A stretch of 64,000 nucleotides of DNA from Dactylorhiza incarnata (Eukaryota > Streptophyta > Magnoliopsida > Asparagales > Orchidaceae). The DNA lies in NCBI GenBank assembly GCA_033032865.1, contig JAWHQI010000328.1:2418001-2482000 (forward strand). Direction: 5' to 3'. Shown one piece after another: positions 45,937 to 64,000 of the stretch (within the stretch, counting starts at the first letter, position 1; each line of letters opens with the position of its first letter). A program made the translations under genes and the position numbers. Below the pieces are notes generated by a model. That model was not told where the DNA came from. It saw only the letters and a program-made list of their open reading frames with translations, and searched no databases.

Positions 45937-47543
45937 TGTTGGGAATATTGACCACAAGATTCCTAATTTGAAGTAGGTCTTATGTTAACAATAAGCACAT
46001 CATGTATTTGATATTCAATTTTAGTTTCGATGTGATAGGTATAACTAAAGTGCATGGCTAATGTAGGGTTAGACTTATAGTCTATCAAACAGTGTTTTGA
46101 CTATATAATCCCTCATGGTGTGTTGACTTATGATCTAACACTATATTAGACTTGTCACTATCAAGAAGAAGTCACTTGAAAATGGTTTGGATAAGAAACT
46201 GTAAAGATAGCAAATAGGTTGGATTAAGCCTAAAATTGGCTAAGAAAAATATCAGCTAGATGATCTAGACGACAAGGATTCTATGTCGTCTAGACCACTG
46301 CTGTGTCGGCTAGAAGATCTCGACGAAAAAAAATTATATGATGTATAGATCATTGCAGTATCAGATAGAAGTTCTCTACGACAAAGTTGTATGTCGGTTT
46401 AAAGGCTTATACCAACTAGAAGCGATATATCGACCAGAAGGCCTATATCGACTAGAAGGCTTATATCGTCTAGAAGACTATATCATCCAGAAGATTTTTA
46501 TATTTGCAAGGCATGAGAATAAAGTCAGATATTATGCCTTAAGTTTATATTCATTTTTAATTACAATATTTAATGCACCAATCAGAGGATTTCTTCTAGA
46601 AGGTCATAATTAATAAATCATTCTTGATTTATGGTCGTTAGATAATGGGTCTATATAAAGGCCTCGAGGGCTCTCAATTAAGACAAGAAATTTAATTCTA
46701 ACTTCATAAACTTTTGCGATTCATCTTCATCCTTCTCGAGAACACAATTTCATTGGAGGGAGCACCGAGATTTCTCAAGGAAGAACCCTAAGGTGCTGCT
46801 CTTACAAGTTCTCATATTTTTCTTGCAAGATCTTCATATCCTGTACAATTAAGAATTGATTCAGCATATTGCTCAAGTTCTTCTCAGCAATTCCAATTCT
46901 CCATCAAGATTATTTGAGTAAGAAGATTATTTTCTACAAGACGAGTTTGTTTGATCTAGATCTTATTTCGCAAGAAGATCATTTGAAGATCTGTTCATGA
47001 AAGAAGAAGCTACTTTACTGTGCTTCAAGAGAAGACTCAAGTCATTTATCTCTTTATCTTATTGAGTCAATATTGCAAAGCAAACAGTAAAATTATAAAC
47101 TGATTGTTGTAGGATCTTTTAAGATCTAAGTGGAAGGGCTTTTTGTGTAAGCCTGAGTTGTAGGGTTATTTGAGCTTGAGTGTCCGGATTCTTTTGAGAA
47201 TCTGAGATTGTTGTAGGATTCTTTTGGGAATCTGAGTGTAGGATCTTGAAAAGGATATGAGTGTAGATCTCTTGTTGTAGAGATCGAGGTAGGGCCTTGG
47301 TGGCCTGAGTGTAAGTCTTGAAGAAGAAGACTGAGAATTGGAGGAGTTTACTTAGTCTAGCACATTGCTAGATATGTGGTGTGGAGAGAGGACTACCCAA
47401 GACATTCTTGGGGAACCTCTATAAATCATTGTGTTCTTTCTGTGCTTAAATTTTTATCTTGCTAAAAAATAGAAAATGATTTAAAAACACCCATCACCCC
47501 TCCCCCTTTAGGTGTGATCTAGGTGAACCAAAGTAAAATAGCA
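45937..47543 (+). repeat. Sirevirus-type 3' LTR (LTR-0)
   Basis: Starts TGTTGGGAATATTG after a purine tract. U3 holds a keyword array of TCTAGAAG/CTAGACGAC words (46262-46500). TATA box TATATAAA at 46652. Downstream come the hairpin array (47110-47335), single hairpins at 47357-47371 and 47396-47412, GGAACCTCTATAAATC, and a C-rich CACCCCTCCCCC. The right end is estimated by comparison with SIRE-A. Confidence 0.65.
47110..47335 (+). other. array of nine short hairpins in LTR-0
   Basis: Units have the form GTAG, stem, loop, stem, CTGAG. Stems include GATCTT/AAGATC, GATTC/GAATC (twice), GATCTC/GAGATC, GGCC/GGCC and AGTCTT/AAGACT. Most stems differ in sequence yet still pair; unit 3 does not fold. 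Confidence 0.75.
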
Positions 47544-49273
47544 AAAAGTCGACCAAAAGATATGTTTATCCAAAATAATCTAATTCATTCTTATAGAAGA
47601 CTTATATTGAAAAATATGCTAAGTCCAGATTCGACTTAATGATAGACCGATCGTACAGAACTAACAAGACGATTCTGGCTAATACACTTAGAATACAAAG
47701 GGCCTATAAATATTCGACTGAATGAAGATCGATCAAGCTGATGAATCAAGATGATTCGTGTAGATGATACGTAAAGAGTATAATGTTCGTATAGAACATC
47801 TACACGATCGTGCAGACAGGTCAAGGCGATTCTTCCTAAAGAAGCATAGAGAAAACAAGTCTTCAATAGAAATACGCTAAGTAAGAATTCAACTGAATAA
47901 GAAGCCGATTCGACCAGATGAGTCTGATTCGACCATAAGCAAGCCTTGAAGGCATAATTCAACTGAATAAGGAGAATTCAACCAGAAAGGCTGAATTCGA
48001 GCAGAAGCAAGTTATGAAGATAGAATTCGACCAGAACAGTGGGATTCAACCAGAAAGGCTGAATTCGACCAGAAGCCCAATATAAAGATTAAATTCGATT
48101 GAATTAGAAGGTTTCGACCAGACATGCTAAATTCAACTAGAAGCAGACTGTGAAGAACACATTTGATTGAATGAGATGAAATTTGACTAGACAGCTAGTC
48201 GAATTACAAAAAAGGTGGAGTTCAAATTGAAGCGCTGATTTGGCATTATCTCCATTAATGCCGCCGCGGATTGAGTAAGTGAATCACGTCTGATATGGAA
48301 GAAGATCTCTGACTTAATGTCAGTACTAGAATCGACCATTAGACAATCTTGTCTTATATAAGGGGATGCGACGCTGATGCAAACCATAATCACTAATCGC
48401 CTAATCAAAAAATCTAAAAGAAAAGCTTTTTCGCCGCTTACATTTTATTGTTCTATTGAAAAGCCTAAGGGAGGGGAAGACAAGTAAAAATAAATCAATG
48501 AACTTCTCCAAGAAGAAACATTGATTCAAGTTGCTGATTCAGATCAAGGATCTTTCAGCTAAGAAGAAGAGTCTTCAACAATGCATAAGATAGTTCACTA
48601 ATTCATTCAAGATCTCTGCTAGAAGACTCAAGTATAAGCCGATCTTCATCAAGGCTTACAGAAGACTCCAAATCATTCAATCTTATCATTTTGAGTCTAT
48701 AGAAAGTTTGCATAAACTTATTAAAACTGTAGGATCTCTCTGAGATTTGAGTTGTAAGATTTCTGAGTGGAATCTGAGTTGTAGGGCACTTCGTGGTCTG
48801 GTAGGAGACTTGGACTCTGAGGTAGGAAGCTAGTGAGTGCGTCTGAGTTGTAGAATCTCGTGGGATCTAAGGTAGGGTACTTGGTCTTTGAGGTAGGAAG
48901 CCATTGAGTGCTTCTGAGTTGTAAGATTCTGTGGGATCTGAGATAAGAGACTTGGTCTCTAAGGTAGGGAGCCAGACTGGGCTTCTGAGTTGTAGGGTCC
49001 TTGGGACTTAAGGTAGTAGACGTGGTCTCTGAGTTATAGGATATGCGGATCTGAGTTTTGGTGGAGATTGCTGAGTTTAGCACACTGCTAGATAGGCGAG
49101 GGGGGAAATGGAGTACCCAAAACACATTATCTTAGGGAACCACAATAAATCACAGTGTGTTTGTGTTGTGATCTTTCTGTGGTTGTGTGATTATTGTGCA
49201 TAGATTAATAATTCCGCGATAAATTAAAAAATAGCCGACATCATCTATTCACCCCCTCTAGGTAAAGTCCTCA
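47544..49273 (+). repeat. second Sirevirus-type LTR (LTR-D), 5' truncated
   Basis: No start is seen. U3 is packed with ATTCGACCAGAA words and forms ATTCAACTGAA (47620-48200). TATA box TATATAAG at 48355. Hairpin array 48730-49055, single hairpins 49077-49091 and 49116-49137, GGAACCACAATAAATC, then CACCCCCTCTAGG. No primer site follows, so it is a 3' or solo LTR, possibly nested in the next element. Confidence 0.55.
48730..49055 (+). other. array of about fourteen short hairpins in LTR-D
   Basis: Linkers are GAGTTGTAG or GAGGTAGG. Stems include AGAGAC/GTCTCT, GGAAGC/GCTTCT, GGGAGCC/GGGCTTCT (with wobble) and ATCTC/GAGAT. Some units have one mismatch. Confidence 0.75.
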
Positions 49274-49815
49274 TGTATTTTCATCCTATGAAGAAGGCTG
49301 CTCAAATTAAAAAGGATAATCTCAATCTTCAAAAAGGCAAAAACATTGTTGATTCAGACTTATAAATCTCATTAATTGAAAAGATGATCCATGAGCTTTA
49401 TAGAAGAGGGTTCAATCTTTCAGATGTTTATAATTTTGCTTTAGAAGGTTTGAGGAAGTTAATTTATGTTTCAAATTCCTTAGAAGACATTCTAGGAAGA
49501 TAACCAAGAAGATTCTCTAAATACTATGATAAGCTCAAAGAAGACCTACACTTTCATATCAATACTTTTCTTGGAAAGAATCTCATGTGAAATTGATGCA
49601 TCATTGAATGTATTTAAACCTTATCTTCTATATTTCTATCTCTAAAAGTTGAATATAAAGGTTCCATGATGAAAGTCTTAAGTAATGAACATGGGGGTTG
49701 TCCGTAGATCATCTTGTCTATCTATCCTCTATATTTTTATTATTGTATTCATCTAGAAGTATGTGATAATTGTTTTTTTTGTTCCAAATCACTTACATAT
49801 TAAATAGGGGGAGAT
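49274..49815 (+). pseudogene. decayed Sirevirus-like extra ORF and purine tract
   Basis: One plus-strand frame (from 49274) reads MYFHPMKKAAQ, then SLIEKMIHELYRRGFNLSDVYNFALEGLRKL, then FSKYYDKLKEDLHFHINTFLGKNL, with stops in between. Helix-rich and charged, it resembles the C-terminal part of the SIRE-B extra ORF in style only. The purine tract AAATAGGGGGAGA (49802-49814) precedes a new LTR. Confidence 0.35.
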
Positions 49816-50601
49816 TGTTGGGAAAAATCCCTTCATAATTTGATATATCAGATTATCAAAGTGATATAAGAATATAATTCTGTATATAAATGACAAATTG
49901 TATATAGCCTGGAATTCAAAGTCATTCAAAATATCAATGAAGTGAACTAAAAGTCTTAAGAGATCTTAGAATATGGATAACTAAAGAAGTTTACTTTGAG
50001 AAGATGTCGATGTACGTCTACAAGTAATAAAAGTAGAAGTCAATGTACACTGAGAAGTTAGAACTCAAGTTCTACAGAGTTAGAGCAAAAATATATATTG
50101 AGATATCGTCTTGTCTAATCCATCTCCATATACTTCTACTTCCAAGTCAGAGTTTAAGATTTCTTGAGTCGACATCCATGCAAAGCAAATTCAAATTGAG
50201 CATAAGCAGATCAAGGCAACAAATCAGATCTAATTAAAGTCGTTGATATTCGAGTATTGAAGGATATTAATCTCTTTAAAACAAATATGGCAAGGTATAA
50301 TTGAGGACAATCAATATTTATTAATGGACATTCATATTATGATATATCAGAGACAAAATATTGTGAAGTGATTGTACAAAAAGAAAAAAAAGATCTCTCT
50401 CACCCTCTCCTTTCTGATCTAATTCTTTCTTCTTCCCTTATTCCTTCAAGTCTCAAGATAGAAAACTGCAATCATCAAGGATCATCTTCTCTTGATCTAT
50501 AGGCCGCTCCTAAAGATGAAATTACAAGAGGATTCATTGAGTATTGTCTCACAACAGATTCAATCTTCTACCTATTAAATCGGATCTATCAAGAAAAGTA
50601 T
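49816..50601 (+). repeat. Sirevirus-type 3' LTR fragment (LTR-1)
   Basis: Starts TGTTGGGAAAAATCCC after the purine tract and is cut at 50601 by a minus-strand LTR before any hairpin array is reached. Confidence 0.5.
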
Positions 50602-51979
50602 TGTTGCGGATCGCTCGGGGCCTCCGGTAGATTGGGCAACTTTACTGCCTTAGCCCGCTAACGCTCGAACGTGCAAACAACTAAAAGGGTCTCCTGAAGA
50701 GACCGAGTCCAAGAGCCGATGACGTGGAAAACCCCAATCGGGGTGAAACACCACGCGGCCGGAGCTATGCCGGCCTAACTTCCACTATGATGTGCTTTTC
50801 TTTTACATGCTTATTCTTGAGAGAGCGAGGGAGAGAGGCCGCATCTCGTTACAATGACGGGAAAGAGAGAGAAAGAGAAAGAGAGAGAGTTCGTTTTCTT
50901 GTTCCATTACGACTTTTCCTCCCAAGTCCAAGCTTCGCTCGTACCCCCGCGGGCACTTAGCTCCTCGATTGGTCTACAAACAGTAAACTCCAAGTTTCCA
51001 CGGTGGTTTGCGAACATTAAACTCCAAGCTTCCACGGTGGTCTGCGAACAGTAAACTCCAAGCTTCCACGGTGGTCTGCGAACAGTAAACTCCAAGCTTC
51101 CTCTGTGTTCTGCGTACAGTAAACTCCATGCTTCCACGGTGGTCTGCGGATATCTCTCTCCAAGTCTCCAATCTGTAGAGAGAGAAAGTGGAGATAGAGA
51201 GATAGACAGGAAAGGAGAGGGTTAGAGCTCCAAGCCAAAAGTGGCTAAATGAGTAGTCCAAAGGGTCTATTTATAGTTTCTTAGAGGGGCAGCCCGGTAA
51301 ATTTACCCATTATTTACAGGACCGGCCAATAGGAGGGCTCCGCTTGAGGCACACAGATCACCAAAATTTCGAAAATGATGGCCCTACCCCCAACCCTAAA
51401 CAAACGTAGCCGAAAGGAGGAGATGGCAGCCGGAAGGAGGGCGGTCGTGGCCTAGGGCGGTGGTGCCCTTGGCGTCCACGGCCAAGGGCGGCCTTGCCTT
51501 TGGCGGCCACATCCAAGGGCTTCCACCCCTTTGGCGTCCGCGGCCTTGGCCGACGGCCACCTTGGCGGCCACGGCCAAGGGCGGTGGTGCCTTTGGCAGC
51601 CGCGTCCAAGGGCTGCCTCGCTCTTGGCGGCCGCGCCCAAGGCCGGCGCCTGCTAGGCCTTTGGCGGCCACGCCCAAAGCCGGCGTCGGCACGGCCTTGG
51701 GCGGCCGCGTCCAAGGCCAGCGCTGACGCGGCATTGGGCGGCCGCACCCAAGGCCGGCATGGTCTTGGGCGGCGGCCCCGTGGGCGGTCGGTCCTTGCGC
51801 GGCCGGCCGTGAGCGTGAGGAATTGTGCGGGGATTGCGGCCTACGCGCACAATCCAGTGCGCCGATCTTGCGTGCGGGGAGGACTCTCCTTGCAAGGAGG
51901 ATTTGCTATATATGGTGTTTCCTTGCTTGCCGACCATCTATAAGCGGTGATTCCCCAATTAGTGGGCCTGGTCCCATCA
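50602..51979 (-). repeat. minus-strand LTR of another element
   Basis: On the minus strand it begins TGATGGGACC (51979) after the purine tract AAGCTTTGGGGGGAAAA and ends GATCCGCAACA (50602). U3 holds an array of CTTGGGCGGCCGCGTCC-type palindromic words (51440-51790). TATA box CTATAAATAG at 51267-51276. Downstream lie five 34-bp tandem units (50989-51158). No primer site follows at the left, so it is a 3' LTR. Confidence 0.55.
50989..51158 (-). repeat. 34-bp tandem repeat, five units
   Basis: Units start at 50989, 51023, 51057, 51091 and 51125. Each contains TCCAAGCTTCCACGGTGG or a near form, and most end in AGTAAAC. It lies in the transcribed part of the minus-strand LTR. Confidence 0.85.
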
Positions 51980-52926
51980 TTTTCCCCCCAAAGCTTTCGG
52001 AGCCGAGTAATAAAGTAATAGAGTTCCGAGAACTTTCTTCCCTTTCCCTCGGGATGACAAATGGTGTTGAAGGAGATAGAGTCAACGCGTCGAAGGCTAG
52101 TAAGGTATGCGAACGGATTGAGAGTACACATGAGGGGTATAAAGGACACGCGTGCGGGACGCGTGCCGACAAGCATGTTATGCACGGGGTGGGCACGCGT
52201 GCATGCTCGCATCACGTGTGCGCACGATGAGGCATGTGTAATGCGTATGCGCCATGGGGAAGCGCGCCGCGTTAGCCCCCACGCACCATGCGGGTGCATG
52301 CAGCGTGAGCCCTCACGCGCCGTGCTAGCGTGTGCATGGACCGCGCGGTGTGCGCTCTAGCGTGTGTGCGAACCATGTGCACGTGCGGTGCTAGCGCACG
52401 TGATCCGCGTGGGCGTGCTGGGCTAGCACGCGCTGTGCGCGCGCGCTAGCTAACCATGCGTGTGTGATGGGCTAGCACGTGCGCGCTGCACTAGCGTGCG
52501 TGATGCACTAGCGCGCATGCCGTGTGCGTGATGCACACGCCCTGCCTGCGTGCGTGTTGTGCGCATTGTGTTCCGCGTGTGCGCCCGACGTGTGCATGCT
52601 TTTGTGCGTGTTTGTTGGTGGCCCGTTTATCTTTCCGCGTTCATGCTTGTGCGGCGTGATGCTGCTCTAACGGCTAGCGAGGCCTCGTTGGGTTTATGTT
52701 CATCCCCTTGGGCAAATGGCAGATTATTTGAACACATTGGCGGAGGTTATGCACGAGATTTTGGAAGGTGTTTGGGGATGAGGCCTAAGCGTACCGGGGG
52801 GTCTTTGCTTGATGCTCGGACGAGACCTGGGTAAACCGGGTGATACCGCTGAATTTTTGGGCGAGTCCCGGATGAACTGGGGGTTGCCGCTGTATGTTTG
52901 GGCGAGACCCGGGTAAACTGGGGGAT
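51980..52926. other. GC-rich region with GCTAGC/GCGTGC word array
   Basis: Next to the minus-strand LTR lies its purine tract (51980-51996). From 52150 to 52560 the sequence is dominated by GCTAGCGCGTG/CACGTGCTAGC-like words in both orientations. At 52800-52926 a roughly 50-bp tandem repeat with GGCGAGACCCGGGTAAAC occurs. The open frames here reflect composition; no gene is recognised. Confidence 0.45.
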
Positions 52927-54153
52927 TGTTGGGAAAATGACCCTCAATGTTTCCCTGATTTGAAGAGGCTTCACACTCAATGCTAAGTACAAGTTGTATT
53001 TGATAAACCTTATTTCTATCTCATGACAATGCAGGACTAGGACATACCAAGGTGTGATGTATGATCAGTTGGTTTACTGTCAAAACCGCTGAGATAAGCT
53101 CTCAGTCTCAACTGAACCGCTGAGACATGGCCAAGAGCCGCTGAGAAGATGTCTGGGCCAGATGAGCTGCAGATAGAAGATAACCGTTGAGACAACTGTC
53201 TGTCTCAGCGGATCTGCTGGGATGGGACAGATGTAACCGCTGAGACGGTTGGCCATCTCAGCCCAACCGTTGAGACATATTCAAAAGTGATCTTGCAGGT
53301 TCTGCTTTTGTGCAAGCTGCAGAAAGGCTTATTGAGGTCCACCAATCACTCCCATACCTGTTAGAAGGACAACTAAGAGCCGTTGAAGATCAGTGGTGTA
53401 TAAAAGGAATAAGTTACGGTTGAGCAAAGTGCTTTTTGCTTTTGATCTTACTCTCCAACACACAAGAAAGAAGATTCACTGTTTCATTGTCGGCAGTGAA
53501 GAACTGATTACACAAGGGTGGAAGGAGAGAAGATATTGCTTATCTTGATTCATCTCAAGAAAGAGCAAGTTGATCCAGTCCATCATCTAAAGGGTTGATC
53601 AAGAAGAATCAAGTTGGAGCGGCACTTCTCCTCCCTGGTTCAAGTCTGCAACAGCAGCTGTTAAGAAGAAGAAGACCAAGGATTGACCTCTTCTTCCTTC
53701 TATATGTAATCCTTTATTATATTATCTGTAGGAACTTGTGTGTTCTGAGATTGTAGGGCTTTATTGCCTGAGTGTGTAAGGCTGATTGGCCTGAGCTGTA
53801 GAGCTGAGAGGTCAACTTGAGTGTATGATCATTGTGTGATCTGAGGTAGGGATGTTGTGCCTGAGGTAGGGTTTGGGAAAACCTGAGAGATCCTGTGGGA
53901 TCTGTGTTGTAGGCCCTTGGAGCTGAGTTTGGAGAAATTGGCCTTATCTAACTCATTGTTAGAAAGGTGAATGGGGGAAAGAGGACTACTCAAGGCACCA
54001 TGTCTTGAGGAACCTCTATAAATCTCTTCGTATTTTCTGTGCTTGATATTTTACTAACCTAAATTCAAAAAACACTAATCCTAAAACAAAAGAAACCTAT
54101 TCACCCCCCCCCCCCCTCTAGGTTACTTAGACTATATCCTAAATAAACTATCA
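52927..54153 (+). repeat. 5' LTR of SIRE-A
   Basis: From TGTTGGGAAAATG to AAACTATCA, 1227 bp. U3 keyword array CCGCTGAGAC/GTCTCAGCGG (53087-53282). TATA box TATAAAAG at 53399-53406. Hairpin array 53728-53928, single hairpins 53948-53962 and 53989-54009, GGAACCTCTATAAATC, a run of 13 C (54104-54116), then CTCTAGG. Confidence 0.85.
53728..53928 (+). other. array of about nine short hairpins in SIRE-A
   Basis: Stems include GGAAC/GTTCT, AGGCT/GGCCT, AGATCC/GGATCT and AGGTTT/AAACCT (with a bulge), between GTAG and CTGAG linkers. Two or three units are decayed. Confidence 0.7.
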
Positions 54154-54155
54154 AG

Positions 54156-54168
54156 TGGTATCAGAGGC
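54156..54168 (+). promoter_or_regulatory. primer binding site of SIRE-A
   Basis: TGGTATCAGAGGC, two bases after the LTR. Confidence 0.85.
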
Positions 54169-54231
54169 AGGTTATCAAGAAGGACATAGCTGTCTGACCA
54201 GATCCAATAAAGGAATAGCCTTATCAATCCA

Positions 54232-54536
54232 ATGGCTTCCTCTGGATTGTAGAAGGAGATGGGATCCATGAAGTTGCCCATATGCAACAAAGTAAACTTT
54301 GGCATATGGAAGCAAATGGTTAGATTGTTTATGGAAGCATCTGATCCAAGGATCTACATAACTGTAAAGCAAAGGCCTTTCACCTTTCAAACTGCCTCCA
54401 CCATAGATCCAACAAGAAGAGTGCCCAAGACATTCAATGACTTAACCAAGGATGAACTTGCACTGTTCACTATAGATAAAAGGGCACAAAACATAATTGT
54501 TAATGTTATTGATGACTCTACATTTCAGAAATTGGT
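54232..54536 (+). pseudogene. gag: SIRE-A gag, N-terminal part
   Basis: ATG at 54232 is followed after six codons by TAG (54250-54252). The same frame then gives ICNKVNFGIWKQMVRLFMEASD and LTKDELALFTIDKRAQNIIVNVIDDSTFQKLV, the usual start of Sirevirus Gag. The interruption by SIRE-B follows LVK. Gag packages the element RNA; this copy is dead. Confidence 0.75.
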
Positions 54537-55882
54537 TAAAAGTACACAGTTAACCTCACTAGAATTCTCTAGAGGGGGGGGGGGGGGGGGGGGTGTGAAT
54601 AGAGATTTAAAAATACTTTGTGCAATTATATATATATATATGTGTAATAATCACAGAATTAAGCTTCCCACACACCAACAAGAATTAAGCAAGTAAAGAA
54701 GAAAAACAGCAAGAAGAAAATCACAGCACAACACAAAGAAATATAGTGGTTCCCCAAACTTTGGGTAGTCCACTCTTCTACCCCCTTGGTAGGAATTCAC
54801 TATCTTGCACTGAGTCTTTTGATAAGGAGACTCTTAGAACCAGCCTGAGTCTTTTGATAAGGAGACTCTTAGAACCAGCCTGAGTCTTTTGATAAAGAGA
54901 CTCTTAGAACCAGTACAACTGAATTTTTTGAAGAGAGATTCTAAAAACTCTTTTACACAATTGAAGTTGAAATAAGAATGAGAAGGAGAATTAGAAGAAA
55001 CAATTAAAAACAAGAAAGAATCTTCTTCCTAGCAAGAAGATTAGAAGCACAAGAATAGTGAATGTAATCTCTCTTTTATAGTGAGAAGGAGATTGTAAGC
55101 TTTTCTCTCTTTTGTGAGAGCTTTCAGAATTTGCAGTAGAATGGCTTCAGAAGGAGGAGAAGATGAAGGCTTTTTCTTTGCTGCAGCACACTATCTCTTT
55201 TCTCAGCTTTCTCACTCTTCACTTGGGAGCTCTTCCTCTTTTTCAAATGTATATGGCGGATCACTAGTTGTGATTCTATGTCGACCTCCTCTTTATTTAT
55301 AGCTCTGTTTAAAAAGATATTGCTAAAGGAGAATAATCAATTAGCAATTAGAGAGAAAGAGTTTCCATAATAATTAAATCTGTAGAAGGAAAGAATTCAT
55401 TCTGATTTTAAATAATATCCATAATAATCTTAATCAAATTAGCCAAAAATCAAATAGAAGGAAAGACTGATTCAGAACGGCTATAAAAGAATAATATCAT
55501 TCCATAAAAATCAGATCTACAGAAAGAAGGAAAGAGATCTGGTGTGTTTTTGAATTTCTTATAGAAATTGACGTGCGTCGATTACTATTCGACGTGAACG
55601 TCGATTTCATCCTGGCTGAGCGTCGAGAGGAGAATAAGGAAGGTGCATCGACTAAGGTGCGTCGACTTTATTAAATGCGTCGACTAGAAGTCAGAGGTAC
55701 GTCGACAAAGATTACGTCGAATTCTTCTTAGAGTTACTTCGAATCATTCTGAGAGAAACGTCGACTACATTTCAACGTTGCGTCGAATACTATTCGACGC
55801 TTTTTTACTTAGCCTAATTTTTCATTCTTAGAATTTATATTCTACTCAATTCTAGGGGTTAAGATAAATCATTTCCCCAATA
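54537..55882 (-). repeat. 3' LTR of SIRE-B
   Basis: On the minus strand it starts TATTGGGG (TG to TA) and ends with the complement of TAAAAGTACAC. Keyword array GCGTCGA/TCGACGC at 55569-55800 (U3). TATA box on the minus strand at 55291-55302. Three 35-bp units with GAGTCT/AGACTC stems at 54811-54913. Hairpins at 54778-54792 and 54753-54767. A run of 20 G at 54574-54593. Confidence 0.88.
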
Positions 55883-55895
55883 ATCTCCCCCTATT
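55883..55895 (-). promoter_or_regulatory. polypurine tract of SIRE-B
   Basis: AATAGGGGGAGAT on the minus strand just before the 3' LTR. Similar tracts recur at 57243-57257, 57210-57220 and 57501-57512; multiple tracts are known in Sireviruses. Confidence 0.8.
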
Positions 55896-56022
55896 TGTCT
55901 TAACCCTATTTAGAGAGAAATTGTATCAGCTTTTAATCAACACAGCAAAGCATTTATATAGAGAAGAAATATGCTAAGTAATCAGAAGAAATCATATAAC
56001 AAGTAATTGTCTTTCACAAGAT

Positions 56023-58252: not shown

Positions 58253-61200
58253 TTACAAGCTTCCATCAAGCATTCCCAAGGTGTTGATAAAGTAAGTATG
58301 CTTAGTTTCATCTAAGGGTTTGGTAAAAATGTCTGCTCTTTGACTATCTGTAGGAATATATTCTAAGGTTATCTTACCTTTTTCTACATTGTCTCTAAGA
58401 AAGTGATGTCTGATCTCTATATGTTTGGTTCTACTATGAAGGACTGGGTTGGATGCTATGGATATAGCACTAGAGCTATCAAAATAAATTTTAGAGTTAT
58501 TGACTTCCAATTTATAGTCAAGAAGCTGATTTTGCATCCAGAGGATTTGTGAACAACAGCTCCCAGCAGCTATATATTCAGCTTCAGCTGTTGAGGTTGA
58601 GACTGAAGTTTGTTTCTTACTGAACCATGATATTAATCTGTCACCTAGGAATTGGCAAGTACCAGATGTGCTTTTTCTATCAACCCAACATCCAGCATAG
58701 TCTGCATCTGAGAATCCTATTAATTCAAAATTTGTTTCTGCTGAGTACCACAGACCTAGTTCAGGTGTTCCCTTTAGGTATCTAAGAATCCTTTTTACAG
58801 AGGTGAGATGGGATTCTTTTGGATCAACCTGAAATCTAACACATATGCAGGTTGCAAACATAATGTCAGGTCTGCTAGCTGTTAGATAGAGAAGGGATCC
58901 TATGATTGCCCTATATGTCTTTTGATCTATTGATTTTCCCTTATCATCCTTTTCTATAATGGCATTAGTTGTCATAGGTGTTTTCATGGTAGAGGCCGAT
59001 TCCATACCAAACTTTTTGATTAATTCTTTAGTGTATTTAGATTGTGAGATAAAGATTCCCTCACTGCTTTGTTTCACTTGTAGCCCTAAGAAATAAGAGA
59101 GTTCTCCCATACTACTCATTTCAAATTTTGATTGCATTAATTTAGCAAATCTTTTACAAAGTTTGGGATGAGTTGAGCTAAAGATGATGTCATCTACATA
59201 AATTTGAACAAGGAGTTGATTTTTATGGGTTCTAGTAAAAAGTGTTTTATCTACTTTTCCTCTTTCAAAAGAATTTTCTAAAAGGAAGTTGGAGAGAGTT
59301 TCATACTAGGCTCTAGGTGCTTGCTTAAGACCATAAAGTGCTTTGTTAAGTCTATAAACAAAGTTAGGTGAGGAGGGATTGACAAAACCTGGTGGTTGCT
59401 CTACATACACCTTTTCTTGAAGGTCACCATTCAGAAAAGCACTCTTGACATCCATCTGATAGACTTTCATCTTCATGAAGGCTGCATAGGCAAGAAAGAG
59501 TCTGATTGCTTCCAATCTGGCTACTGGAGCAAAGGTTTGATTGTAGTCTATCCCTTCTTCTTGTCTGTATCCTTGTGCTACAAGTCTTGCCTTGTTCCTG
59601 AAAATTACTCCAGTGGAATCTAGTTTGTTTCTGTATACCCACTTTGTACCAATAACTGGGTAGTTTCTTGGTCTCTCAACTAGGTTCCACACTTTGTTTC
59701 TCTCAAATTGGCTTAGTTCTTCTTGCATGGCTATAATACAGTGAGGATCACAATTTGCTTCCTCAAACTTCTTTGGTTCAACTTGAGATAAGAAGCATTG
59801 GAGCATCATCCCATTGGAGACTTGGTGTCTTGTTCTTACTCTAGTATTGGGGTCTCCAATTACTTGGGATTGTGGATGATTTTTCATATTGATTCCTGTT
59901 CTGCTTGGATTTGTCAGATGCTCTTCTTCCTCATTAACAATGGGATCATTGTCCAACTGTTCTTCCTGAACCATGTTCTCTTGTGGGAGTTGGTTTTGAT
60001 TGCTCTTTTCTGGACCTTCTTCATGCTCTTGTTCAGACTCCTCACTTGGTTCCTGTAGCTGGTTTTCTTTCCCAGTGTCTAGAGTCAGTTGTTCAAGATG
60101 AGCCTCTATGCTGCTATTTTCCTGTGGAAAAGGATTGGTGGAAGTTTCCTCCCCCTTAAACAGCATGTTAGTTTCATCAAATATAATGCGCATAGATTCT
60201 TCAATTCTGAGAGTTCTCCTGTTATAGCATCTATAAGCTTTACTAGATGATGAGTACCCCGAAAATATTCCATCATCAGACTTCTTGTCAAACTTGGCAA
60301 GATGATCTTTCCCATTATTTAGAATAAAGCAAGCACATCCAAAAATTTTAAAGTATTTAACAATGGGTGTTTTTCCCTTCAGAAGCTCATATGGAGTTTT
60401 TGCCTTAGTTTTGTGAATGAGGCTTCTATTTAGAACATAGTTTGCAGTGTTGACTGCTTCAGCCCAGAAGGTTTTTGGTAATCCTGATTCTGCAAGTAAG
60501 GTCCTTCCTGATTCAATTAAAGTTATATTCTTTCTTTCAGCAACTCCATTTTGTTGAGGAGTTCTAGGGGCTGAAAAACTTTGTTTAATACCTATATTCT
60601 CACAGAAACTACAAATTGACTGATTTTCACTCCGGATAATTGAAACATGAGTATTGAACTCAGATTGAATCTGTCTTATGAATCTTGAGAGAATCTTATG
60701 GGTTTCAGACTTAGCCCTTAGAAAGAATACCCAGATAAACCTAGAATAGTCATCTACAATGACTGAGGTATAAGACTTTCCACCTAAGCTCTGAGTGGAT
60801 ATGGGACCAAAGAGATCCATGTGTAGTAAGTAGAGGATCCTAGGGGAGTCATCCTTACCAATTGGTTTGAAGGATGACTTGGTCTGTTTTCCTAGTTGGC
60901 AAGGTCTACATGGAGAGTCCTTAGAGAATCTACCCTTTGGTTGGCCTCTGACTAGGTTATTCTTTGATAGTTTACTAATGGTTTTGTAGTTTAGATGACC
61001 CAGTCTTCTATGCCATAATTCACTTTTATTAATAATATTGTTGAACAAACAAACTTCTGTGGGTGAGGAGCTAAAGTCTACTATATATACCTTCCCTTTT
61101 CTAATTTCATTGAGTACTATGGCACCAGTCTTGATGTCAATAATATGGCAAAATAGTGTGGTGAATTTTACCTCATACTTACCACTATCACATATCTGAC

Positions 61201-61440
61201 TTATACTTATCAGATCGTGCTTCAGTCCTTTGACTACTGCCACATTCTTGAAGGTAACTTTCCCTTCTTTGAAATCTCCAAAGCCCCTGGTTTGGCCACA
61301 GCTAGAGTCTCCAAAAGTCACTGGTGGTCCAAGTCTATCCTCAAAATTGATTAATAGGTTTTTGTACCATGTCATGTGCATGGAGCATCCACTGTCCAAG
61401 TACCACACCAGCCTGGAGATGTGATACATCTGCACATAAA
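58253..61440 (-). pseudogene. pol: SIRE-B pol: protease to RNase H
   Basis: Minus strand. Protease [12 protein letters not shown] (about 61400), GAG-pre-integrase [10 protein letters not shown] and [14 protein letters not shown], integrase MDLFGP and [14 protein letters not shown], reverse transcriptase [22 protein letters not shown] and YVDDIIF, RNase H FSDADYAGCWVDRKSTSG, TAEAEYIA and SRTKHIEIRHHF. Stop at 58255-58253. Lesions: TAG at 59308-59306 where relatives have Trp, and in the integrase the expected RSDxGxEF block is replaced by [10 protein letters not shown], so the second catalytic Asp and about ten residues are lost. A frameshift at about 61440 separates it from gag. Confidence 0.9.
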
Positions 61441-63597: not shown

Positions 63598-64000
63598 TGA
63601 AAGTACACAGTTAACCTCACTAGAATTCTCTAGAGGGGGGTGAATAGAGATTTAAAAATACTTTGTGCAATTATATATATATATGTGTAATAATCACAGA
63701 ATTAAGCTTCCCACACACCAACAAGAATTAAGCAAGTAAAGAAGAAAAACAGCAAGAAGAAAATCACAGCACAACACAAAGAAATATAGTGGTTCCCCAA
63801 ACTTTGGGTAGTCCACTCTTCTACCCCCTTGGTAGGAATTCACTATCTTGCACTGAGTCTTTTGATAAGGAGACTCTTAGAACCAGCCTGAGTCTTTTGA
63901 TAAGAAGACTCTTAGAACCAGCTTGAGTCTTTTGATAAGGAGACTCTTAGAACCAGTACAACTGAATTTTTTGAAGAGAGATTCTAAAAACTCTTTTACA
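63598..64000 (-). repeat. 5' LTR of SIRE-B (partial, runs off the window)
   Basis: On the plus strand it starts TGAAAGTACACAG. It matches 54537-54940 with only a few differences; the G run is 6 here against 20 there. The three GAGTCT/AGACTC units are at 63854-63957. Confidence 0.9.

Follow-up and report, generated by a model that had tools for sequence, protein, structure and literature searches.

The 64,000-nucleotide (nt) stretch of the Dactylorhiza incarnata genome analysed here (the window) contains several long terminal repeats (LTRs) of Sirevirus-type retrotransposons, and raises the question of what maintains in them tandem series of short units whose arms change from unit to unit and still pair. 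A first-pass annotation had pointed to such units in three LTRs, termed A, B and C below, with a related array in a fourth element, SIRE-B, and had taken variable sequence with conserved pairing as a sign of selection on structure. We confirm the tandem hairpins with their varying yet complementary stems, and find the accompanying interpretation partly supported: selection on structure is supported, and strengthened by the recurrence of the arrays in many families and by a depletion of ATG around them. On the function we are more tentative. Our favored reading, held with less than firm confidence, is that the arrays constitute a selected 5'-leader RNA structure of Sirevirus-type elements that may act as a Gag-binding packaging or assembly signal. 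The features on which the argument depends are as follows (TATA boxes were read in the sequence).

46652..46659, + strand: TATA box of LTR A
47109..47335, + strand: array of LTR A, 9 units of GUA-stem-GAG (hand parse, arm swap)
48355..48362, + strand: TATA box of LTR B
48729..49055, + strand: array of LTR B, 14 units, partly arranged in three 71-nt higher-order repeats (hand parse, arm swap)
52927..54153, + strand: LTR C, from TGTTGGG to the CA ahead of the primer-binding site (PBS) match at 54156
53399..53405, + strand: TATA box of LTR C
53728..53927, + strand: array of LTR C, 9 units (hand parse, arm swap; relatives L125, L136, L139, L145, L148, L154 and L159)
54810..54914, - strand: array of the SIRE-B 3' LTR, three 35-bp units with a GAGUCU stem around the loop CCUUAUCAAA (unit recurs in relatives)
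55294..55301, - strand: TATA box of the SIRE-B 3' LTR
63853..63957 (ends approximate), - strand: copy of the 35-bp-unit array in the SIRE-B 5' LTR (LTR alignment)

Hairpin arrays in the window

The unit counts agree with the 9 to 14 given originally for A, B and C, and the three 35-bp SIRE-B units with GAGTCT/AGACTC stems are likewise real. The arrays also start where they had been placed, roughly 320-490 bp past the TATA box (~457 bp in A, ~374 in B, ~329 in C and ~390 in SIRE-B). A hand parse of the 32 units of A, B and C revealed a common design, GUA-[~6-bp stem with its loop]-GAG, in which most units have the 5' arm directly after GTA and the 3' arm directly before GAG, and the first stem pair is usually G.U. 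The linkers, previously described as constant, do not form one constant block: GUA and GAG are fixed across units, and the spacer between them ranges from 0 to 6 nt. The units measure 19 to 26 nt and differ in length within one array, which rules out coding repeats as an explanation. We also considered whether the GUA/GA at the stem base might resemble a sarcin-ricin or loop-E-like module; the topology fits the letters, but the outer helix is absent. In LTR B (48800-49012) three units together make up a 71-nt higher-order repeat, so that arrays seem to expand by multi-unit duplication.

The stem score of the 32 units is 389, as against 293.3±10.9 with a maximum of 324 in 300 shuffles of the unit interiors; thus shuffled sequences of equal composition are not as well paired, a possibility that had been raised with the original observation. 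When the 3' arms are exchanged among the units of one array (arm swap; the registers of A2, A4 and B3 were set by hand), the pairing is destroyed: the native arms form 131 of 192 Watson-Crick pairs versus 83.5±6.2 after swapping, a value reached by 0 of 20,000 swaps for all units and by 0, 1 and 0 of 20,000 for arrays A, B and C respectively. Restricting the set to 15 non-redundant units gave 56/90 pairs versus 38.6±4.6 (3/20,000). RNAalifold, applied to 28 of the 32 units (the poorly fitting B3, B14, C4 and C9 being omitted), recovered a 6-bp stem in the same register as the hand parse, with 91.1% of cells paired (69.3% in shuffles); a shift of the partner by 1-3 columns brought the share down to 12.5-61.8%. 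In the same alignment 44 cells are altered on both sides, compared to 12.1±3.4 in shuffles; the count of pairs with any two-sided change (5) is not above shuffles, being reached by 132 of 500.

Array designs across Sirevirus-type families

The PBS typical of Sireviruses (TATCAGAGC after CA-ATTGG or CA-AGTGG) and a polyC integrase signal near the LTR end are both present in the SIRE-B 5' LTR. LTR C has the polyC signal and a PBS with one changed letter, LTR B the polyC signal and no PBS, and in LTR A the polyC signal is degenerate. A G-rich polypurine tract, GGGGGAGATT, lies ahead of LTR A and of the SIRE-B 3' LTR. SIRE-B, for its part, displays the copia order, with rve followed by RVT_2 in 59306-61435 (- strand), that is, integrase ahead of reverse transcriptase; among the best 120 of 7,990 matches of its reverse transcriptase piece the named relatives are plant proteins, the top identity being 76% to the orchid Platanthera. 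The combined polyC and PBS pattern recovered 627 exact sites in the genome, versus 0 for a reversed-pattern control, and we fetched 50 Sirevirus-type LTRs of many junction types, 30 of them taken as they came and 20 hand-picked for variety among the 627 sites. In blastn comparisons the window LTRs align with each other only in 79-134-nt stretches around two further hairpins (boxes 1 and 2, below), and therefore represent distinct families.

Arrays of the GUA-stem-GAG design (type I) occur in 17 of the 50 LTRs, with 6-14 units each. These 17 were admitted for having at least 3 units by a pairing-based count, which is a source of bias; their units were later delimited without reference to pairing. 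Arm swaps within each LTR reached the native pairing in at most 13 of 3000 trials in 17/17 cases, and the 105 distinct units pooled give 353/525 pairs versus 194.0±10.1 (0/2,000). None of three pooled controls is significant: 15/85 pairs versus 22.0 for 17 units on the antisense strand (1951/2000), 51/165 versus 43.0 for 33 units from upstream sequence (168/2000), and 51/170 versus 42.2 for 34 distinct units from other LTRs (110/2000). Among 119 well-paired type I units, 85 have G.U as pair 1, and over pairs 2-6 the ratio of G.U to A.C is 27:3. A covariance model of the unit, built from 12 of the 14 LTR B units with the poorly fitting ones omitted, was used to search 37 of the 50 LTR loci, 13 SIRE-B copies being left out. 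Such a search had been proposed with the original observation for LTRs of other plants; made within this one genome, it recovered 61 matches at E<=0.1, as against 4 for a sequence-only model; 57 of the 61 lie in the array position by their coordinates, and 4 fall outside (in L138, in L153 and two in L155). In the window the model found 8 of the 18 A and C units at E<=10, versus 1 for the sequence-only model, and 2 versus 0 matches outside the arrays.

A second design (type II), with variable stems around a repeated UUGMGG loop, occupies the same place in L113, L133, L142, L152, L153, L156, L157 and L158. These eight LTRs were chosen by eye and junction type, and their units delimited by the loop core alone. 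The 83 units contain 29 distinct arm pairs, forming 56/87 pairs versus 35.2±4.1 (0/5,000), and all eight LTRs individually pass the arm swap at 37/5000 or fewer. Hybrid units combining type I flanks (GUA...GA) with the type II loop (UUGMGG) were seen in L113, L133, L146, L152, L153, L156 and L157; both flanks accompany 14 UUGMGG cores in the eight type II LTRs, or 15 of 84 with L146 added, so there is a gradation between the two designs. SIRE-B-type LTRs and LTRs related to them have a recurring loop around ACCUKAUCAAAA, with stems such as GAGUCU, UAAGC, GAGC and UGGG. This set comprises 12 LTRs, the remaining ones (mostly SIRE-B copies), L143 and L146 belonging to neither group, and its 16 distinct units score 161 versus 134.3±8.2 under the arm swap (3/5,000). 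It is probably a third design (type III), graded no higher because several of its units pair poorly or could fold otherwise.

We also examined copies of A and B elsewhere in the 3.27-Gb assembly, 39 of A and 27 of B besides those in the window, the 27 of B being part of the places listed. With the window copies included, arm complementarity is reached by at most 10/1000 shuffles in 40/40 copies of A (at most 1/1000 in 37) and by at most 1/1000 in 28/28 copies of B (13 of the 14 units used). Most positions hold a standard pair in most copies of both families. Several units had been described as imperfect, as is indeed seen in the window; yet in B4, B5, B7, B13 and B14 the mismatches are for the most part decay private to the window copy, the majority of the other 27 copies pairing normally at these places, whereas a few positions, such as the sixth pair of A3 and of A8, are unpaired in most copies.

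Outside the plant genome, pattern searches of viral contigs gave 0 and 33 matches, and a scan for the unit grammar flagged one of the 33 loci, L028 (7480-8360). We ruled it out as a relative, its phage TTQAP coding repeats mimicking the unit grammar by chance; it provides a useful false-positive control for that grammar. A pattern search of genome contigs gave a single match, in a bacterial record, taken as chance without further examination, and reverse transcriptase queries against the viral contigs found no relative.

The arrays in the predicted leader

Along the elements the order is TATA box, array, boxes 1 and 2, PBS and gag. Positions were counted from the PBS in 22 LTRs picked from the 50, 10 with sequence past the PBS (from -75 on). 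The ATG frequency is 12.7-26.7 per kb upstream of about -825, falls to 0.6-4.8 per kb from -825 to the PBS, and rises to 36 per kb at +75..+150. The reverse complement CAT stands at 15-22 per kb from -825 to -525, where 119 CAT face 24 ATG. Word counts in the array part of the LTRs agree: ATG occurs 19 times versus 101±7.5 expected in type I, 5 versus 37.8 in type III and 11 versus 24.0 in type II, and CAT 44 versus 42.5±5.7, 55 versus 52.7 and 11 versus 12.3 in the same order; ahead of the TATA box all three types have at least the expected number of ATG. As a side observation, the depletion over L110-L159, from about -825 to the PBS, could make it possible to locate LTR transcription starts with sequence as the only input.

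Of 13 loci tested, two have an open frame with Retrotran_gag_2: in L111 it begins at +73 and runs off the end of the stretch, and in L138 it begins at +67 and has 371 codons. Frames at the gag position are shorter in the remaining 11, as expected of decayed copies. Within 1.5 kb past the PBS, 22 of 30 loci have a CCHC pattern in one frame or another; the Pfam zinc-knuckle score in L111 is under the cut-off. Where found, the TATA box lies mostly 715-980 nt ahead of the PBS end, which predicts a leader of ~750-1,000 nt. The arrays, then, probably lie in a sense-strand leader that ribosomes scan, in line with the earlier expectation that they are present in the RNA, and this speaks against ribosome shunting and against a role as promoter DNA only. 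A further suggestion is that much of the length of Sirevirus LTRs makes up a structured, scanned leader and does not serve as promoter DNA. A hidden Markov model study placed the R region of Sire LTRs, of ~10 bp, near the TATA box (PMC3601003); should this hold here, the arrays would lie in U5, and only at the 5' end of the RNA.

Between the arrays and the PBS lie the two further hairpins.

47356..47372, + strand: box 1 hairpin of LTR A (UCUAGC/GCUAGA)
49076..49092, + strand: box 1 hairpin of LTR B
53947..53963, + strand: box 1 hairpin of LTR C (UCUAAC/GUUAGA, one compensated pair)
47387..47420, + strand: box 2 hairpin of LTR A (outer stem, ACUA/GAA internal loop, inner stem)
49107..49144, + strand: box 2 hairpin of LTR B (imperfect)
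53980..54017, + strand: box 2 hairpin of LTR C
54745..54774, - strand: box 2 hairpin of the SIRE-B 3' LTR

Box 1 comes after the array in A, B and C; SIRE-B retains it poorly, and in further LTRs it was spotted by eye, without a count. Box 2 matched in 48 of 55 LTRs and, with L145 and L154 removed as false, is kept in 46/55, many of them close SIRE-B copies, with 17 distinct stem sets. Its outer stem is AGAGG/CCUCU, AGUGG/CCACU or AGUAG/CUACU, the internal loop is of the ACUA/GAA type, and the second pair of the inner stem is C-G or U-A. The stem variants are two-sided changes: outer pair 3 is T-A in 30 and A-T in 16, outer pair 4 is G-C in 40 and A-T in 4, and inner pair 2 is C-G in 31 and T-A in 15. 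At inner pair 4, 22 have A-T and 24, in the register set by the script, a non-standard pair, mainly in the short SIRE-B form. Judging from these substitutions, box 2 is a second structured RNA in its own right. It has no Rfam match in 46000-56000, a region in which the Rfam scan gave two matches, both far under the gathering score and neither at an array.

Readings of the arrays

What stays fixed in the arrays is, as the sequences show, a short motif left unpaired: the flanks (GUA...GAG) in type I, the UUGMGG loop in type II and probably the ACCUKAUCAAAA loop in type III. With a short, unpaired fixed part and a variable stem, the motif appears to be what is recognised and the stem what holds it. 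The stems would then be interchangeable spacers that keep many copies of the motif (9-14 in the window arrays) single-stranded while being weak enough for scanning ribosomes to open. When ribosomes are off the leader, the element's own Gag, with a CCHC zinc knuckle in many copies, might bind the motif sites cooperatively, and the array would become a family-specific packaging and assembly signal; the many motif copies in the leader together with the zinc knuckle suggest such multivalent binding. A wider generalization, which we consider doubtful, is that Sirevirus leaders are modular display RNAs, in which freely varying paired stems would show a short family-specific motif repeatedly to the element's own Gag, families having changed the place of the motif or the design. 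If true, the display array would mark the identity of an element's RNA, and this tag would diverge from one co-resident family to the next. Little is known about how a plant copia element singles out its RNA for packaging when many families share the genome; a covarying leader array that is repeated and switches design supplies exact sites at which RNA selection can be tested.

Retroviral Gag is said to select RNA via a signal near its 5' end (PMC8396678), and retroviral and Ty1 packaging leaders likewise have RNA structure close to the PBS, at the 5' end (PMC8396678, PMC8096270), Gag recognition of the arrays being a proposal. These leaders hold a few unlike stem-loops or a pseudoknot, in contrast to a long tandem array of interchangeable stems.

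Several points weigh against the favored reading. Ty1 Gag preference involves a pseudoknot and not a hairpin array (PMC8396678), and in mouse mammary tumor virus mutating several Gag-footprinted unpaired stretches beside stem-loops left packaging unreduced (PMC8096270). The survey covers one genome. Covariation among related LTRs, which had been anticipated, is very strong between units and between families and weak or absent within a family: compensated cells number 13 versus 7.7±2.1 in A (reached by 4/300 shuffles) and 9 versus 7.8±2.3 in B (111/300; 13 of 14 units). Variation sits between units and between families and not among copies, and the units being fixed per family accounts for this. 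As a strand test, G.U against A.C is indicative only: the ratio is 17:3 in the window units but 32.7:17.7 with shuffled arms, one-sided changes within families A and B (77:28 and 93:45) show no excess over shuffles (79.6:33.0 and 98.0:50.2), and base composition and C-to-T decay may account for part of the bias. In the PBS-anchored profile of the ATG depletion, CAT and ATG are equally rare from -375 to -225. The word-count null is crude: its shuffles ignore relatedness, and other words deviate too, such as GTA in type I (184 versus 92 in the array part, 12 versus 48 in the boxes) and CAT upstream in type III (36 versus 67), so that the PBS-anchored profile is the better evidence.

Folding energy adds little. 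The comparison with shuffled controls came out as expected for A and C, whose local z-scores (pairs spanning at most 30 nt) are a clear -3.85 and -3.55, and failed for B, at -1.11 (reached by 27/200 shuffles). Global folds do not stand out, the z-scores of A, B and C being -2.04, -0.06 and -1.8 on the sense and -5.69, 0.39 and -4.05 on the antisense strand. Median local values are -2.89 sense and -3.74 antisense over 40 copies of A, and -1.13 and -2.10 over 26 of the 28 copies of B, whose median global z of -0.58 is weak. With the antisense strand folding as well or better, energy does not indicate sense RNA, and with B near zero we rejected these z-scores as proof of sense RNA structure. Folding energy neither refutes nor proves the case, nor does it select a strand.

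Other roles for the arrays would draw on the same data. That many weak stems slow scanning ribosomes, setting Gag output or separating translation and packaging pools, is unlikely, though it deserves serious attention: the scarcity of ATG between TATA box and gag suggests that the arrays are scanned, and the isolated units are weak (median -5.5 kcal/mol), yet translation alone leaves the fixed GUA/GAG or loop motifs and the several designs unexplained. The shunt leaders of plant pararetroviruses are similar in being long, structured leaders of a plant retroelement, but shunting there accompanies short upstream open reading frames (PMC5902531), which are rare in the ATG-depleted leaders studied here. 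It is rather improbable that the arrays feed or divert the production of small RNAs, an idea put forward for the palindrome region of maize Sireviruses. Small RNA hotspots have been reported at Sirevirus palindromes (PMC10760457, PMC5311732), and the maize region shares with the arrays its LTR hairpin potential and small RNA link (PMC10760457, Martin 2023), but the motif cited for it is a fixed CACCGGACNNNGTCCGGTG palindrome, unlike the variable array stems (PMC10760457). Type II arrays reach the cut-off of the maize work, -40 kcal/mol per 110 nt, in 8/8 LTRs, and it is for type II above all that this role stays in play; the cut-off is passed by 4/17 of type I and 0/12 of type III, more often by the upstream regions of type I LTRs (10/17), and 110-nt-window energies of the four window arrays are -26.5 to -34.5 kcal/mol. 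Nor does this role offer the element a clear benefit that would maintain pairing and motifs.

A contribution to reverse transcription, through RNA dimerisation, annealing or strand transfer near the PBS, we rank next, with a low probability. The arrays do lie upstream of the PBS, and by inspection the type II core CUUGCGGG self-pairs if G.U is allowed; the type I loops, however, vary per unit and show by inspection no common self-complementary core, so that there is no kissing site common to all families. It is quite improbable that structure is not selected at all and that template switching during reverse transcription or replication perfects quasi-palindromes. Templated changes can yield compensated arms without function, but they leave unexplained why flanks or loops are fixed, why the first pair is mostly G.U, why each unit is stable from copy to copy, and why the arrays hold the same place in families that align only around boxes 1 and 2. 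Least probable, and by our estimate very much so, are DNA-level cis-regulatory palindromes like the published Sirevirus palindromic repeats (RM; PMC2829016). Those are found in the same kind of LTR and also consist of many short dyad-symmetric units, but they mostly occupy the upper LTR half, ahead of the TATA box, whereas the arrays start 329-457 bp downstream of it; they have a CGG-CCG core in 12/13 and CpG islands, the core being in none of the 32 window units; and they are commonly >85% identical within an element, whereas the array arms vary from unit to unit. Complementarity kept without sequence conservation and the use of G.U pairs also argue against palindromic DNA.

No description of arrays downstream of the TATA box was found in the open-access literature searched, and an earlier mention, for example in Bousios 2016, is possible. 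That work reportedly dealt with the maize Sirevirus palindrome region and miRNA-like structures. The earlier remark that no description of such an array was known appears to hold for the leader arrays and fails for palindrome-rich Sirevirus LTR regions as such, which are published, if upstream of the TATA box and near-invariant within most elements (PMC2829016).

Two features of the window are separate from the arrays.

47886..48197, + strand: repeats of LTR B ahead of the TATA box, where the published RM are situated
55574..55799, - strand: GTCGA-type repeats of SIRE-B upstream of the TATA box

SIRE-B, whose 5' and 3' LTRs are 98.4% identical over 368 aligned positions, appears to be nested inside element C. 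A probable second LTR of element C lies outside the window (G000:C2438:2493069), with an array 96% identical to that of LTR C (52927-54153). Between the elements there are a 34-bp tandem array at 50936-51170 and a 31-bp tandem array at 51409-51656.

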